Shown: in pieces, positions 1,746-52,016 of the stretch | How positions within the stretch are numbered: the stretch's first letter is position 1 | Layout of the letters: every line of letters begins with the position of its first letter | Assembly (NCBI RefSeq): GCF_014395785.1 | Contig: NZ_CP060713.1 | Span: 3,314,501 to 3,378,500, forward strand | Length of the DNA: 64,000 bases | Source of the DNA: Nocardioides mesophilus | GTDB taxonomy: Bacteria > Actinomycetota > Actinomycetes > Propionibacteriales > Nocardioidaceae | Direction of reading: 5' to 3' | Notes under the pieces: model-generated | Databases searched by the model: none | What the model saw: the letters and a program-made list of their open reading frames with translations, nothing else | What the model was told of the DNA's origin: nothing | Position numbers and translations under genes: made by a program

Positions 1746-2485
1746 AGGACCCCGCCCTGGTGGCCTGCTCGCACGGCACCGCCGACACCGACGGCACCGC
1801 CGCCGTCTCCGGCCTGGTGACCGCGGTCGCGGCCGCGGTCGAGGTACCCGTCAGCGAGGCGTACGTCGACGTGCACGGGCCGTACGTCGCCGACGTGGTC
1901 ACCGGGCACCGCGGGGACGTCGTGGTCGTCCCGCTGCTGCTCGCCGCGGGCTTCCACGTGCACGTGGACATCGCCGAGGCCGTCGCGGCGTGGCCGCAGG
2001 CGCGGGTCAGCGACGCGCTGGGTCCCGACCCGCGGCTCACCTCGCTGCTGGTGGACCGGCTCGCCGCGGTGGGCGCCGGACCGGACGACCTGGTGCTGCT
2101 CGCCGCCGCCGGCTCCTCCGACGACCGCGCGGCCTCCTCGGTGCGGGCCGCCGCCCGCGAGCTCGCCGCCGCCCGGGGTGGTCGGGTGCGCATCGCCTAC
2201 GGCGCCTCCCGGGTGCCGCGGGTGACCGAGGCGGTCGCCCGGCTGCGGGAGCGGGAGCCGGACCGCCGGGTCGTGCTGGCCTCCTACCTGCTGGCCGCCG
2301 GCTTCTTCCAGCGCCGGCTGCACCAGGCCGGCGCCGACCTGGTCACCGCCCCGCTGCTCGAGACCGGCCTTCCGCCCGACCCCCGCCTGGTCGACCTGGT
2401 GGTCGAGCGCTACCGGCAGGCCCGGGACCCGGCCGCGCCCGCCGGACCCGGGGCCGGCCGGCGCAGCGTCGGCCCGGCGGCCTGA
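1742..2485 (+). CDS. Sirohydrochlorin/cobaltochelatase (CbiX/SirB family)
   Basis: Inserts Fe2+ (siroheme) or Co2+ (B12 route) into sirohydrochlorin in the cytoplasm. The 247-residue product is typical of single-chain CbiX-like proteins with two ferrochelatase-like lobes. The N-terminal motif ACSHGT carries the first metal-binding His and [12 protein letters not shown] the second. The GTG start at 1742 overlaps the stop of the hemD-like remnant, and a purine-rich AAGGAGAG lies just upstream, so the gene still has a ribosome site although its usual upstream partner has been lost. It ends four bases from the convergent GNAT-Nudix gene. Whether iron or cobalt is the substrate cannot be decided from sequence; a cobalamin riboswitch operon elsewhere in the window shows that B12 matters to this organism. 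Confidence 0.88.
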
Positions 2486-2488
2486 GGG

Positions 2489-3529
2489 TCAGCGGCCGGA
2501 CTCGGTGTAGGGCCGGGTCCCGCCCGGGTCCGCGGAGAGGTTGCGCAACGCCGCCTCGACCCGGCGGGCGGTGAAGTCGGTGGCCCGGTCGCGGACCTCC
2601 TCGACGGTGCAGAACCGGGCCGAGCGGATCTCCCGCTCCTGCTTGACCACGTCGTGCAGGACGTCGGGAGCGTGCACGCCGCCGTCGAAGACCAGGCACA
2701 GCGCGTCCTCCCAGCCTCCCCACGGCGGCAGCCAGTCGGTCAGCACGAGAGGACCGATCGGCAGCTTCAGGCCGAGCTCCTCCTCCACCTCCCGGACCGC
2801 GGCGAGCTGCGGGGACTCGCCGACCTCGACCACGCCGCCGGGCAGGTCCCAGTCCCGCTTGTAGGTCAGCTCGCACAGCAGCACCCGGTCCTCGGGGTCG
2901 CGCAGCAGCATCTGGGCGATCGCGCGCTTGCGCGGGAGGAACGAGTTCAGCAGGGTCCGGAAACCGGTCGGGTCGCTCAGCGGCGGGTCCGAGGCCAGCC
3001 GCGCCAGGACGACGTACTCCGTCGTCTCGGGGCGGTCCCCGGTGCCCGGGGCGACCCGCTTCACGCCCTCGCGGTGCATCCCCGCGCGGGTCGCCACCCG
3101 CAGCGAGCGCTCGTTGCCGGGCTCGACCTCGGCCTCGACCCGCTGCATGTCGAGCTCGTCGAGGGCGTAGCCGATCAGCAGCCGGACCGCGCGGGTGGCG
3201 AAGCCCTGACCACGGTGCCCGGAGTAGAGCACCCAGGAGAGCCGGGCGGTCCGGTTGCCCCGGTCCTGGACCTCCACGCTGCCCACCAGGCGGCCGTCGT
3301 GCTCGACCACGAAGCTGACCCGGCTGCGGCCCTCGGCGTACCAGCGGCGCCAGTCCTCGACGGCGGCCCGGTGCTGCTCGTAGGACGGCTGCACCACCGG
3401 AAAGCCGAACCAGTGCGCGATCTCCTCGTCGTGCCCGGCGATCGCCTCGGCGATGTCGTCGTCCCGCCACGGTCGCAGGACGACGACACCGTCGCTCAGC
3501 GTCGGCTGCGGGGGGAGGGAGTCGGGCAC
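2489..3529 (-). CDS. GNAT acetyltransferase-Nudix hydrolase fusion
   Basis: Two-domain cytoplasmic enzyme of 346 residues. Residues about 14-178 form a RimJ/RimL-like GNAT domain with the acetyl-CoA loop GHRGQGFATRA (104-114). Residues about 198-330 form a Nudix domain whose box at 231-254 has all signature positions (GG..E.GES, then REVEEELGL). The family logic is acetylation of an amine plus hydrolysis of a nucleoside diphosphate derivative; the real substrates are unknown and nothing in the neighbourhood identifies them. The upstream region (3530-3560) is very short and the glgB gene ends at 3561 in the same direction, so it may be read as the last gene of the glucan operon. The GNAT-Nudix combination recurs in actinobacteria. 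Confidence 0.9.
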   Translation of the reverse strand: MPDSLPPQPTLSDGVVVLRPWRDDDIAEAIAGHDEEIAHWFGFPVVQPSYEQHRAAVEDWRRWYAEGRSRVSFVVEHDGRLVGSVEVQDRGNRTARLSWVLYSGHRGQGFATRAVRLLIGYALDELDMQRVEAEVEPGNERSLRVATRAGMHREGVKRVAPGTGDRPETTEYVVLARLASDPPLSDPTGFRTLLNSFLPRKRAIAQMLLRDPEDRVLLCELTYKRDWDLPGGVVEVGESPQLAAVREVEEELGLKLPIGPLVLTDWLPPWGGWEDALCLVFDGGVHAPDVLHDVVKQEREIRSARFCTVEEVRDRATDFTARRVEAALRNLSADPGGTRPYTESGR

Positions 3530-17537: not shown

Positions 17538-17573
17538 TCGCGGAACCTCGCGGAACCTCGCGGAACGTCGCGG
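17538..17573. repeat. Tandem decamer TCGCGGAACC, about 3.5 copies
   Basis: Copies at 17538-17547, 17548-17557 and 17558-17567 (last base differs), then a partial TCGCGG. The tract abuts the glgX stop codon and sits beside the glgP/glgX terminator. Confidence 0.85.
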
Positions 17574-25921: not shown

Positions 25922-25955
25922 GGCGCCGGTACGTCGGTCGCGGCCGACCGGCGCC

Positions 25956-26041
25956 GGCCGCGACCGACCGGCGAGCGGTACGCCGACCGCGCAACCGCCG
26001 AGCAAGTACGCCGGCCGCAACCGACCGGCGAGCGGTACGCC
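25956..26041. repeat. Degenerate tandem repeat, unit about 29 bp, three copies
   Basis: Units at 25956-25984, 25985-26012 and 26013-26041. The first and third are nearly identical (GACCGGCGAGCGGTACGCC shared core); the middle is degenerate and one base shorter. A partial copy follows to about 26060. It fills the gap between convergent etfA and the ABC-F gene and has no supported coding function. Confidence 0.75.
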
Positions 26042-36236: not shown

Positions 36237-36270
36237 CGCGCCCGGGGACGCGCCCGGGGAGCGCCGGGGG

Positions 36271-37877
36271 TCAGGCGGCCAGGTGCACCGGGTCGGCGCC
36301 GTCGGAGGCCAGCTCCTCGTGCTTGACGTTGAGGAACAGCACCGCGATCAGGGTGCCCAGCCAGATCATGCCGGCGCCGGTGAGGAACGCGTGGGTGGCA
36401 CCCTCGGTGAACGCGACCTGCTCCACGAGCCCGCGGACCCGGTCCATCTCGGCGGCCGACGGAGCGGGACCGTTGCCCGACCCGGCCGCCTGGAGCGCGG
36501 CTCCGAGCGACTGCGCCTTCTCGGTCGAGAAGTGCACCGCGACCGTGGACAGCGTCGCCAGGCCGAGAGCGCCGCCGATCTGCTGCATGGTGTTCAGCAC
36601 GCCCGAGCCGATGCCCGAGTCGCGGTCGCCGACACCGTGCACGGCGGTGAGGGTGAGCGGAACGAACGTCAGCCCCATGCCCAGCGACATCATCACGATG
36701 AACGGCAGCAGGTCGGTGAGGTAGTCGGCGTGCACGCCCAGGTTGCCGGGCGCCTCGGTGTAAGGCAGCCGGGAGAAGCCGAACAGCGCCGAGCCGGCGA
36801 GCGCGGTGCCGATCCCGGCCAGCCAGCGCGGGTCGACCCGGCTGATCAGCTTGGAGGAGATCGTCGCGGCCAGCACGATGCCGAAGCTGAACGGCAGGAA
36901 CGCGAAGCCGGTCTTCAGCGGGCTGTAGCCCAGCACGTTCTGCACGAACAGGCTGAGGAAGTAGAACATCGCGAACATCGCGGCCGGCACCAGCATCATC
37001 ACCACGAAGCTGGTGGCCCGGGTGCGGTTGGCGAGGATCCGGAACGGCATCAGCGGGTGCTCGACGACCCGCTCGATCAGCACGAAGCCGATCAGCAGCG
37101 CCACGCCGGCGGCCAGCGAGACGATCGTCCAGACGTCCTGCCAGCCGTGCTGCGGCTGGCCGGCGCGGGTGAGGCCGTAGACGATGCCGATCAGGCCGAG
37201 GGTGCCGGACAGGGCGCCCGGCAGGTCCAGCTCGCCGGGGTGCTTCTCGCTCTCGGCGAGGACCCGGGGGCGGCCAGCGCGGCCGCGATGCCGATCGGCA
37301 CGTTGATCAGGAAGGTGAGCCGCCACCCGGAGACGTCGGCGCCGAGCATCGAGAAGTTCAGGCCGGTCAGCCAGCCGCCGAGGATGAGCCCCACCGCGGC
37401 ACCGGCGCCGGACATCGCGGCGTAGACGGCGAACGCGCGGTTGCGCGCCGGGCCGGCCGGGAAGGTCGTGGTGATCAGCGCCAGCGCGGTGGGGGAGGCG
37501 ATCGCCGCGCCGAGGCCCTGCAGGGCCCGGGCCCCGAGCAGCAGCCCCTCGTTGCTCGCGAGGCCGCCGAGCAGCGAGGCGACCGCGAACACCGTGACGC
37601 CGAGCATGAACACCCGGCGACGGCCGTAGAGGTCACCGAGCCGGCCACCGAGCAGCAGGAAGCCGCCGAAGACCAGGGCGTAGCCGGTGACGATCCAGGC
37701 CAGGTTGGCGTTGGAGATCCCCAGGTCCTCCTGGATGTAGGGCAGCGCGATGTTGGCGATGGTGCTGTCGAGCACCACCATCAGCTGCGCCACCGAGATC
37801 AGCACCAGCGCCCACCCGAGATGGCGGTGGCCGTGGCCGGTCTCCTGTGCGGAGACCGGGGTGGTTCCTGTGGTCAT
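36271..37877 (-). pseudogene. MFS drug efflux transporter (DHA2/EmrB-QacA type), single-base frameshift
   Basis: Predicted 14-helix proton-driven exporter. The N-terminal part has ISVAQLMVVLDSTIANIALP and motif A GGRLGDLYGRRRVF; the C-terminal part begins RVLAESEKHPGELDLPG and has several further helices. The frame is lost at the G run 37266-37270 (CCCCC on the coding strand): adding one base joins NVPIGIAAALAAP to RVLAESEKHP and gives 535 residues (1607+1 bases). The ATG (complement of 37875-37877) overlaps the TetR stop by four bases, so the pair is an operon. As written, only the first ~200 residues would be made. Confidence 0.88.
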
Positions 37878-38494
37878 GACGTTCCTTCGGGGTGAGCGGA
37901 GTACGGCCGGCCGGTGGCGGCCGGGAGGATGATCTGGTCGACGACGGTCTCGATGACGGTCGGATCGACCGGGAAGCCGAGCAGGAAGACCCGGTGCAGC
38001 AGGATCCCGGCGAGCGCCGCGGAGATCAGCTCCACGTCGATGCCGGGCAGCAGCTCGCCGCGCGCCTGGGCGCGGGCGTAGATGTGACGATTGATCTCGA
38101 GCTTGGGGGCGAGGAACCGGCTCCGGAACTCCTGCGCGAACTCGGGATCGGTGTGCAGCGCGGTCATCACCGAGGCCAGTACGATCGCGTTGTCCTTGTC
38201 GGCGAGCCCTCCGGCCCCGCAGTACGTCGTCAGCAGGTCGCCCCGCAGGCTGCCGGTGTCGACGTCGGCGAGGTCGTGGGCGCGCTTGGAGCGCAGCAGC
38301 GCGTCCACCACCAGTGACGACTTGGAGGACCAGCGGCGGTACAACGTGGCCTTGCCGGCGTGGGCCCGGGCGGCCACGGCGTCCATGGTGAGCCGGTCGA
38401 AGCCGGCCTCGATGAGCAGGTCCAGGGTGGCGTCGAGGATCTCGGCCTCGCGGGCGCCCTCGACCCGGGGACGTACGCCGTCCAGGGGAACCAT
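37874..38494 (-). CDS. TetR-family repressor
   Basis: 206-residue regulator. The N-terminal helix-turn-helix reads EILDATLDLLIEAGFDRLTM, DAVAARAHAGKATLYRRWSS, a canonical TetR domain. The C-terminal domain fits the TetR_C_16/AcrR-like group with LLHRVFLLGFPVD. The ATG (complement of 38492-38494) has GAGGAGG upstream. A perfect 27-bp palindrome 24 bases above the start is the probable operator, giving autoregulation of tetR and the MFS exporter. Confidence 0.94.
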   Translation of the reverse strand: MVPLDGVRPRVEGAREAEILDATLDLLIEAGFDRLTMDAVAARAHAGKATLYRRWSSKSSLVVDALLRSKRAHDLADVDTGSLRGDLLTTYCGAGGLADKDNAIVLASVMTALHTDPEFAQEFRSRFLAPKLEINRHIYARAQARGELLPGIDVELISAALAGILLHRVFLLGFPVDPTVIETVVDQIILPAATGRPYSAHPEGTS

Positions 38495-38517
38495 GCCGCC
38501 ACCTCCTCGCAGGTCGG

Positions 38518-38544
38518 GATGGAACGAAACGGTTTCGTTCCATC
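38518..38544. promoter_or_regulatory. TetR operator, perfect 27-bp palindrome
   Basis: Arms GATGGAACGAAAC (38518-38530) and GTTTCGTTCCATC (38532-38544) around one central G at 38531; all 13 pairs are perfect. It is 24 bases upstream of the tetR ATG. Confidence 0.85.
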
Positions 38545-38598
38545 GAGACGATACGGGAGGCGAACCGCGCGGTGCCACCGGATATTCCGGTCCCGGGC

Positions 38599-38682
38599 GA
38601 TCGGTTCCCGCCGACCGGTTCCCGCCGATCGGTCCGCGCCGATCGGTCCGCGCCGACCGGCTCGGCCCGATCGGCTGCGGCC
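38599..38682. repeat. Six tandem 14-bp units (GAYCGG core)
   Basis: Units start at 38599, 38613, 38627, 38641, 38655 and 38669, each exactly 14 bases. Consensus is GAYCGG followed by eight G/C-rich bases ending CC; units 3 and 4 are identical. An adjacent palindrome ACCGGATATTCCGGT is at 38577-38591. The tract fills the gap between the anti-sigma stop and the tetR control region. Confidence 0.9.
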
Positions 38683-38690
38683 GCGCGGGT

Positions 38691-39431
38691 TCAGAGGGTG
38701 GTGCGGGACCAGACCGGTCCGGTGCCCGCGCCGGAGACCATGACCACCTCGGCGACCCGCGAGGCCGGGGCGCGCACCACCCAGGTCCCGGTGCGGCCGC
38801 GCACCGTCCAGTAGCCGGCCTCGACGGTGCGGCCGTCCCGCAGCCGCAGCCGGCAGGTGTAGCTCATGCCCGGCTGCGCCCCGCGCACCGAGACGACCAG
38901 CACGGGGCCGCGGGCGTCGACCCCGGAGACCACCGTCCCGACGGCGGTGCCCGCGGAGGTGCGCAGCGTCCCGGCGTGCGCCGAGAGGGTGACCGCCGGC
39001 GGCTGCGGTCCGGACAGGCTCTGCGCCCCCACCAGCCCGATGGCCAGGCCCGCCGCCAACCCTGCTGCGGCCGCCACCCAGCGGCGGCGCACCGGGCTCT
39101 GCCCGCGTCGGGGGCCCCGTCGCACCGCGTGCCGCACCCCCGGTTCGGAGCCGGCCGGCGCCGCCGTCACCACCGCCGGCTCGGGGCGCCCGGTGCGGCG
39201 CTGGTCGGCGAGGGCGCCGAGCACCCGGGCCTCGAACCCCGGCGGCGGGTCGACCGCCGGCGCGGCGGCGAAGGTCTCCTCCACGGTGGCCGCGAGCGCG
39301 TCGTACTCGCCGCGGCAGCGGGGGCAGTCCGACAGGTGCCGGACCATCGCGTCCCGCTCCCCGGGGCCGAGCTCATCCAGCGCCAGCGCGACCAGGGCGT
39401 CGGTCGGGTGGGACCGCGGAAGCTCAGCCAT
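38691..39431 (-). CDS. Anti-sigma factor (zinc-binding, membrane)
   Basis: 246 residues. The N-terminal anti-sigma domain carries the zinc motif H-x3-C-x2-C as HLSDCPRC. After a linker there is one membrane helix (WVAAAAGLAAGLAIGLVGA), then an extracytoplasmic RskA-like domain (about 150-246) with TLSAHAGTLRTSAG and GMSYTCRLRLRDG. It holds the partner sigma factor at the membrane until release. Its ATG overlaps the sigma gene end by eight bases, so they are co-translated. The inducing signal is unknown. Confidence 0.92.
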   Translation of the reverse strand: MAELPRSHPTDALVALALDELGPGERDAMVRHLSDCPRCRGEYDALAATVEETFAAAPAVDPPPGFEARVLGALADQRRTGRPEPAVVTAAPAGSEPGVRHAVRRGPRRGQSPVRRRWVAAAAGLAAGLAIGLVGAQSLSGPQPPAVTLSAHAGTLRTSAGTAVGTVVSGVDARGPVLVVSVRGAQPGMSYTCRLRLRDGRTVEAGYWTVRGRTGTWVVRAPASRVAEVVMVSGAGTGPVWSRTTL

Positions 39432-40008
39432 GGTGGACCCCCTCCTCCGGCGCCAGCGCGGCGCGCAGCCTCTTCAGCCCGGTCCGGATCCGCGTCTTCG
39501 CGGTGCCGAGCGGGATCTCCTCCCGGGCGCTGACCTCGGCGGCGGTGCAGCCGCCGATCACCGCGAGCACCACCGCACGGGCCTGCTCCGGTGGCAGGGT
39601 CCGCAGCCGCGCGGTCACCCGGGCCGACTCCAGCCGGTTCACCAGGGCCTCCTCCGAGCTTTCGCCGAGGGTGCCGACCAGCAATGCCTCGAGCACCTCG
39701 TCGTCCACCGCCACCGGCCGTCGCGAACGCACCGCGTCGACGGCGAGGTTGTGGGTGATGGAGAGCAGCCAGGTGAGCACCGAGCCCTTGCGGATGTCGT
39801 ACGCCGCGGCGGCCCGCCAGGCGCGCAGGAACGTCTCCTGGCTGACGTCCTCGGCCAGGCCGCGCTCCCGGGTGATCGCGATGGCCAGCCCGTAGACCTG
39901 CGCCTGGAAGCGCCGGACGAAGGCCACCTCGGCGGCCTCGACGCCACTGGCCAGCCCGGCCAGCAGGGCGGCGTCGTCGGCCCGTGCGGCGAGGGACGGA
40001 GCGCTCAT
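39424..40008 (-). CDS. ECF RNA polymerase sigma factor
   Basis: 194-residue sigma-70 family protein of the ECF group (SigK-like by its RskA-type partner). Region 2 is FVRRFQAQVYGLAIAIT and AEDVSQETFLRAWRAAAAYD; region 4 is LRTLPPEQARAVVLAVIGG, CTAAEVSAREEIPLGTAKTR. The ATG is the complement of 40006-40008. It overlaps its anti-sigma factor and is divergent from a lipoprotein gene that may be a target. A 22-bp inverted repeat lies in the shared gap. Confidence 0.94.
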   Translation of the reverse strand: MSAPSLAARADDAALLAGLASGVEAAEVAFVRRFQAQVYGLAIAITRERGLAEDVSQETFLRAWRAAAAYDIRKGSVLTWLLSITHNLAVDAVRSRRPVAVDDEVLEALLVGTLGESSEEALVNRLESARVTARLRTLPPEQARAVVLAVIGGCTAAEVSAREEIPLGTAKTRIRTGLKRLRAALAPEEGVHHG

Positions 40009-51790: not shown

Positions 51791-51810
51791 CAGGGCCGTG
51801 TCGTGTTAGC

Positions 51811-51937
51811 CTCGGCGCGGCCCGGTTGGGCCACCCAACTCACGCCCACAGGTGGGGGAAGCCGGTCCGAATCCGGCGCTGACCCGCAACCGTAGGTCGC
51901 CTGCTCCCCGGAGCAGGCGACAAGCCGGAACACCCGC
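51811..51937 (+). ncRNA. Cobalamin (B12) riboswitch
   Basis: Adenosyl/hydroxocobalamin-sensing leader. The conserved core reads GGGGGAAGCCGGT, GAATCCGGC and GCTGACCCGCAACCGT (51855-51893), the canonical B12 box. Hairpins precede it: GTTGGG/CCCAAC (51825-51839) and CCCAC/GTGGG (51845-51855). A 12-bp stem (51896-51907/51910-51921) follows, then the closing AAGCCGGAACACC box (51922-51934). It lies 86 bases upstream of the toroid-protein gene and would repress the operon when corrinoid is plentiful. The 5' edge is approximate. Confidence 0.93.
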
Positions 51938-52016
51938 TGTGACGCGTCCTTACACACACGCTGTCGTGGAAAGCAGCGGGTGGCGTCCCTGCCTCCCGTC
52001 TGCGTGCAGCGGGAAA
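51931..52016 (+). promoter_or_regulatory. Predicted riboswitch expression platform
   Basis: CACCCGCTG (51931-51939, overlapping the 3' edge of the aptamer) is perfectly complementary to CAGCGGGTG (51974-51982). A second CAGCGGG (52007-52013) precedes the ribosome site GGGAAAGG and can pair with CCCG at 51995-51998. The alternatives suggest switching at translation rather than a terminator. Confidence 0.45.

Follow-up and report, generated by a model that had tools for sequence, protein, structure and literature searches.

One study of 13 genomes reports that intrinsic terminators can consist of hairpin clusters close to stop codons, most of them with no poly-U alongside (PMC8355165). Structured transcript ends lacking U residues have been mapped in Streptomyces clavuligerus, in a paper that uses the term "I-shaped terminator" (PMC8269248). 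Here we describe a tandem array of short, GC-rich units in Nocardioides mesophilus, located in a 64,000-nucleotide stretch of the chromosome that was analysed as a whole and is referred to below as the window. The best-supported reading, to which we give about even odds, is that this array is a U-poor hairpin cluster, a terminator-like or 3'-end-stabilizing element that closes a sigma/anti-sigma operon and has grown by local duplication. In open-licence literature searched with general terms, titles and abstract openings contained no description of the 14-bp array or of the 32-bp repeat family discussed below.

Structure and setting of the array

The array comprises six consecutive units of exactly 14 bp each (Table 1), in agreement with an earlier sequence-only reading of the window. 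The units are, in order, GATCGGTTCCCGCC, GACCGGTTCCCGCC, GATCGGTCCGCGCC, GATCGGTCCGCGCC, GACCGGCTCGGCCC, and GATCGGCTGCGGCC; the third and fourth do not differ, and all six start with GAYCGG, both as read before. The array had also been placed outside any gene, and this holds, with the anti-sigma ORF ending at 38691 and the TetR ATG at 38494. A TetR ORF extended to a GTG reaches 38578, still outside the array. The minus strand is the sense strand of both flanking genes, and the array begins 8 nt past the anti-sigma stop codon. When the frame is shifted by two bases, each unit consists of a near-palindromic core, CCGAYCGG, and 6 variable bases, with the core present as CCGATCGG (three times), CCGACCGG (twice), and GCGATCGG (once). 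The sequence-only reading was silent on this 8-bp near-palindrome and on the 8-nt distance from the stop codon. It did report a GATATT palindrome beside the array; ACCGGATATTCCGGT indeed adjoins, but GATATT itself has no palindromy. The symmetry is that of the imperfect palindrome ACCGGATATTCCGGT, with 6-bp arms ACCGGA/TCCGGT around TAT, which as minus-strand RNA forms a small hairpin of -7.2 kcal/mol.

Table 1. Coordinates of the array, its neighbours, and examples of the dispersed 32-bp arrays (window positions unless a locus is named).
Feature	Position	Strand	Remark
14-bp array, six units (84 bp)	38599..38682	-	units, self-match, TRF, position
Six near-palindromic 8-bp cores, 14 bp apart, 6-bp variable spacers	38597..38674		
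Inverted repeat ACCGGA-TAT-TCCGGT (ACCGGATATTCCGGT)	38577..38591		far end of array
TetR operator-like palindrome TGGAACGAAACGGTTTCGTTCCA	38520..38542		separate from array
TetR-family regulator gene, TetR_N + TetR_C_11	37874..38494	-	downstream neighbour
Anti-sigma factor gene, zf-HC2 domain	38691..39431	-	upstream neighbour; array behind its 3' end
ECF-type sigma factor gene, Sigma70_r2 + Sigma70_r4_2	39424..40008	-	overlaps anti-sigma start
32-bp array examples, own genome (G000:C1)	L160:1652-1795, 2838-3047; L168:1713-1890, 2067-2244		

The tandem units exceed chance. Shifted by 14 bases without gaps, the array agrees with itself at 58 of 70 positions; in 100 dinucleotide-shuffled versions of the window, the best self-match over periods 7-40 was at most 46/70. 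A TRF scan of the window returned the array as two rows (38587-38660, period 14, score 85; 38588-38674, period 28, score 88), which are the top two scores, the next being 82. For background we used a 464-kb sample of the genome, made up of the window and twenty 20-kb stretches. It contained 122 TRF rows with a score of at least 50, 24 of them above 88, and stronger tandem repeats with other periods are common in it. Only 4 rows have at least 4 copies and a period not divisible by 3, and the array (85) ranks second among these, behind a 10-bp array (91). Short intergenic tandem arrays with periods of 10, 20, and 12 also occur in the window at 17538-17573, 25935-25973, and 36237-36270; by crude gene calls they lie between convergent genes, and two touch the 3' end of a gene.

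On the downstream side, the TetR gene is followed by an MFS transporter gene, and this TetR/MFS unit is co-directional with the sigma and anti-sigma genes. The operator-like motif of Table 1 was found, whole or as a half, upstream of 17 of 19 TetR homologues. Over 300 nt upstream of each of these 19, no 14-bp array was seen, with best shift-14 self-matches of 18-26/56 versus 48/56 in the window. The closest named match of the sigma factor by E-value is from Aeromicrobium terrae at 64% identity, in a search that possibly left out the genome's own entry. The MFS gene (36271-37877, minus strand) is split over two frames that overlap at 37191-37326, its N-terminal half corresponding to MFS_1 positions 2-168 and its C-terminal half to 148-346; the split is either a frameshift of the genome or a sequencing error. 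Elsewhere in the window, at 51806-51955 on the plus strand, a cobalamin riboswitch scores 44.6 bits, above the Rfam gathering score of 31.5.

Core conservation and search for further copies in the genome

Differences from the consensus are concentrated in the spacers, with 11 of 36 sites affected versus 3 of 48 in the cores (Fisher p 0.006, an indicative value as the units are not independent). This lower core variation would be expected of a stem as much as of a binding site. Two T-to-C core changes read as A-to-G on the minus strand, where G-U pairing is kept, whereas on the plus strand they would give C-A. These G-U-preserving changes, two in number, may be taken as weak support for minus-strand pairing.

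Better kept cores speak against neutral growth of the array, in which a GC-rich unit of 14 bp multiplied by replication slippage within a weakly constrained spacer and has no function of its own. This explanation is nevertheless a strong and close rival to the terminator-like reading, and we see in it a serious possibility, if short of an even one. Adjacent units share spacers (unit 1 with 2 and unit 3 with 4), the pattern expected after stepwise duplication. The window has further short arrays between genes, unrelated in sequence, and the 14-bp array occupies a single locus with no orthologue seen in the relatives examined. A "variable tandem repeat", one of the two readings that had been proposed for the array, is plausible as an origin, given units that look locally duplicated and lack an orthologous array in these relatives.

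The other proposal, a protein-binding array, would have a dimeric regulator or a nucleoid protein sitting on each CCGAYCGG and controlling the tetR promoter or read-through from sigma/anti-sigma. A palindromic, better conserved core at fixed spacing is what such a protein might recognize, the array lies upstream of the tetR operator-like palindrome, and three units would make 42 bp, or about four helical turns. Several observations make this reading unlikely in our view. TetR has its separate operator-like site, adjacent cores 14 bp apart face different sides of the helix, and no other exact array exists in the genome. In the 464-kb sample, the core 8-mer CCGATCGG is, outside the array, only somewhat commoner between called genes (8 copies, 0.092/kb) than within them (19 copies, 0.050/kb).

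The genome search was carried out on all 4.49 Mb and gave no sign of random recurrence, which had been named as evidence against the earlier note's proposals, for the exact two- or three-unit pattern. CCGAYCGG-N6-CCGAYCGG had 4 forward matches and 1 reverse match, all within the array, and the three-unit pattern without mismatch matched the array only (4 overlapping matches). With 1 mismatch, the three-unit pattern was found at one further place (C1:1361205), and with up to 3 mismatches there were 167 forward and 161 reverse matches versus 32 and 34 for the reversed control.

Search in related genomes and a two-unit hairpin in a congener

Among the relatives examined, none showed an orthologous array. 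Six other genomes of the genus (completeness 81-100%) contained isolated two-unit matches in two cases (G001 and G005) and none longer. We also took up 11 sigma/anti-sigma loci, two of which (L044 and L059) were dropped as no anti-sigma ORF was recognised. In the other nine (L042, L043, L045, and L053-L058), inspection by eye found nothing like it downstream of the anti-sigma gene, with a doubtful ORF end in the case of L054. Viral contigs searched with the anti-sigma protein held no relative.

The best DNA match to the array among 58 genomes including its own (79%, at G002:C1:2567588) was rejected as a homologue, being a 15-bp coding repeat. This repeat (L032:1448-3058, minus strand) encodes a VGPEPVD-like C-terminal tail on a predicted membrane protein that by eye resembles the MmpL/RND family. 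Of the many weaker matches to the array part in relatives, the five that were inspected by eye (L035, L036, L037, L038, and L040) showed no regular 14-bp array. Three microRNA models of Rfam that hit near the array were discarded, scoring far under their gathering scores.

The two-unit match in G001, CCGATCGG-N6-CCGATCGG at L010:1501-1522, directly follows the stop codon of an unconnected ORF (L010:1524-2918, minus strand) whose C-terminal sequence is LuxR-like by eye. It forms an uninterrupted 12-bp stem that includes the stop codon, with a 6-nt loop and an energy of -27.4 kcal/mol (z -3.5; 0 of 200 shuffles as good). A matching hairpin at a stop codon in a congener weighs against neutral slippage, and this single case is the best hint that a two-unit module works at gene ends.

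Folding of the array and a proposed gene-end role

The 114-nt minus-strand RNA tail containing the array folds at -74.2 kcal/mol, compared with -61.9 +/- 3.8 for 200 dinucleotide shuffles, 1 of which was as good (z -3.2). The plus strand folds almost equally (-71.7, z -2.8), and the minus strand folded as DNA likewise gives z -2.8. The 120 nt behind the anti-sigma gene, at -75.0, belong to the strongest 11 of 138 gene ends, a set defined by crude gene calls in the 464-kb sample and at least 100 free nt. Predicted stable hairpins lie within 80 nt of the stop codon. A terminator scan of 38300-38900 found none, and no U-tract follows the hairpin, so the array is not filed as a classical L-shaped terminator.

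To keep the repetition and break the palindrome, the 14 columns of the array were shuffled alike in all units. Such permuted arrays folded as well in 63 of 500 cases on the minus strand and 22 of 500 on the plus strand, and the structure therefore does not clearly stand out given the repetition and base content. A 50-nt segment of the array folds no better than chance (z -0.85). On both results, much of the fold strength comes from tandem repetition and base content. That permuted controls fold nearly as well is a further point for neutral slippage. Among intergenic tandem arrays in the 464-kb sample, no significant bias toward gene 3' ends was seen (6/9, p 0.23; 8/12, p 0.17), in a test where the crude TetR start put the 14-bp array itself in the 5' class. 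Taken together, the folding predictions lend modest structural support to the terminator-like reading.

Under this terminator-like reading, any transcription of the array would make it the 3' tail of the sigma/anti-sigma mRNA. Its near-palindromic cores, CCGAUCGG or CCGGUCGG in RNA, would allow the units to pair with one another, so that the tail could form either a single long GC-rich hairpin or a number of short ones. These would be followed at the far end by the small ACCGGA/TCCGGT hairpin. A U-poor cluster of this kind may stop or stabilise the transcript and keep expression of the sigma operon separate from that of the TetR/MFS unit, which reads in the same direction. That the array precedes this co-directional unit, with an operator-like palindrome of its own, was counted in favour of a role at the gene end. 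The array itself probably arose by local tandem duplication of the 14-bp unit. The array's position, its repetition, the palindromic core, the predicted folding and the lack of a further exact genomic copy are observations, and its transcription, any termination or 3'-end protection by it, and selection for it are inferences.

Dispersed repeat families elsewhere in the genome

A dispersed tandem family with a period of 32 bp and the core GCCGA[G/C]TCGGCGCATCTGCAG was found outside the window through TRF on the background sample. With up to 3 mismatches allowed, the sequence GTCGGCGCATCTGCAGCGCC had 74 forward and 77 reverse matches, and its reversed version, the control, had 7 and 2. Exact copies of the 18-base core GAGTCGGCGCATCYGCAG are present in 3 genomes from two genera, out of 294 family genomes sampled from a larger group, with 58+32 copies in the N. 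mesophilus genome, 39+32 in the congener G006, and 39+38 in G113, which belongs to the other genus. The spacing is 32 bp, about 3 helical turns, and 52 bp in L141.

We saw 53 of these 32-bp arrays, in 23 stretches of the N. mesophilus genome and 7 of G006. After 14 were dropped for lying inside a called frame or having no gene behind them on the stretch, 30 of the remaining 39 lay behind a gene on the same strand and 9 did not, although either class may hold miscalls of the crude gene calling. The distance from the gene end was 4-46 nt for 23 of the 30. At two loci of G113 (L181 and L184), the core by eye comes closely after TGA. In several places, two 32-bp arrays face each other between convergent genes. 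A REP/RAYT origin of this family gained no support, as none of the 10 genomes searched, including 3 that carry the family, yielded a Y1 (RAYT-type) transposase. A 52-bp tandem repeat is present at L113:19407-19542, L104:316-445, and L104:3745-3872, sharing a CGGCTGTGC-like segment on either strand, and is possibly another dispersed family.

The presence of the 32-bp family, and probably of a 52-bp one, raises the idea that the 14-bp array is the residue of a dispersed repeat family or a mobile element. We regard this as very improbable. A search of the window that allowed up to 3 mismatches found no copy of the 32-bp core, the exact array patterns are found at the array only, and the segment 38480-38720 had no match in a plasmid collection. 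A broader proposal is a design of the lineage in which tandem short GC palindromes, oriented with the sense strand behind stop codons, would serve as modular transcript-end or roadblock elements. In this scheme, the 32-bp family would represent the design in many copies, and the CCGAYCGG array of 14-bp units would be a locally born example confined to one locus. This is a speculative proposal to which we give little credence. The 32-bp family is more interesting than the 14-bp array and is worth separate study.

Comparison with known systems

Alone, the array adds another case to the local repeats at gene ends, and it chiefly illustrates how duplicating a short palindromic unit can give rise to a strong hairpin cluster. 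Contrasting it with the oriented 32-bp arrays behind stop codons could make the formation of transcript ends testable in very GC-rich actinobacteria. With intergenic bacterial VNTRs or minisatellites, the array shares head-to-tail units of fixed length and stepwise sequence divergence, but its unit holds a better conserved near-palindromic core. Iteron-type and other regulator-binding arrays are similar in being regular arrays of short palindromic sites; the array differs in being chromosomal and confined to a single locus, with a 14-bp spacing off the helical repeat and no known binder. From the hairpin-cluster or I-shaped terminators of GC-rich bacteria described in PMC8355165 and PMC8269248, it differs in that its hairpins come from a regular 14-bp tandem, that both strands fold about equally, and that termination is putative here. 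It resembles those same terminators in placing GC-rich hairpins no more than about 100 nt from a stop codon, in lacking a U-tract, and in belonging to a GC-rich genome.
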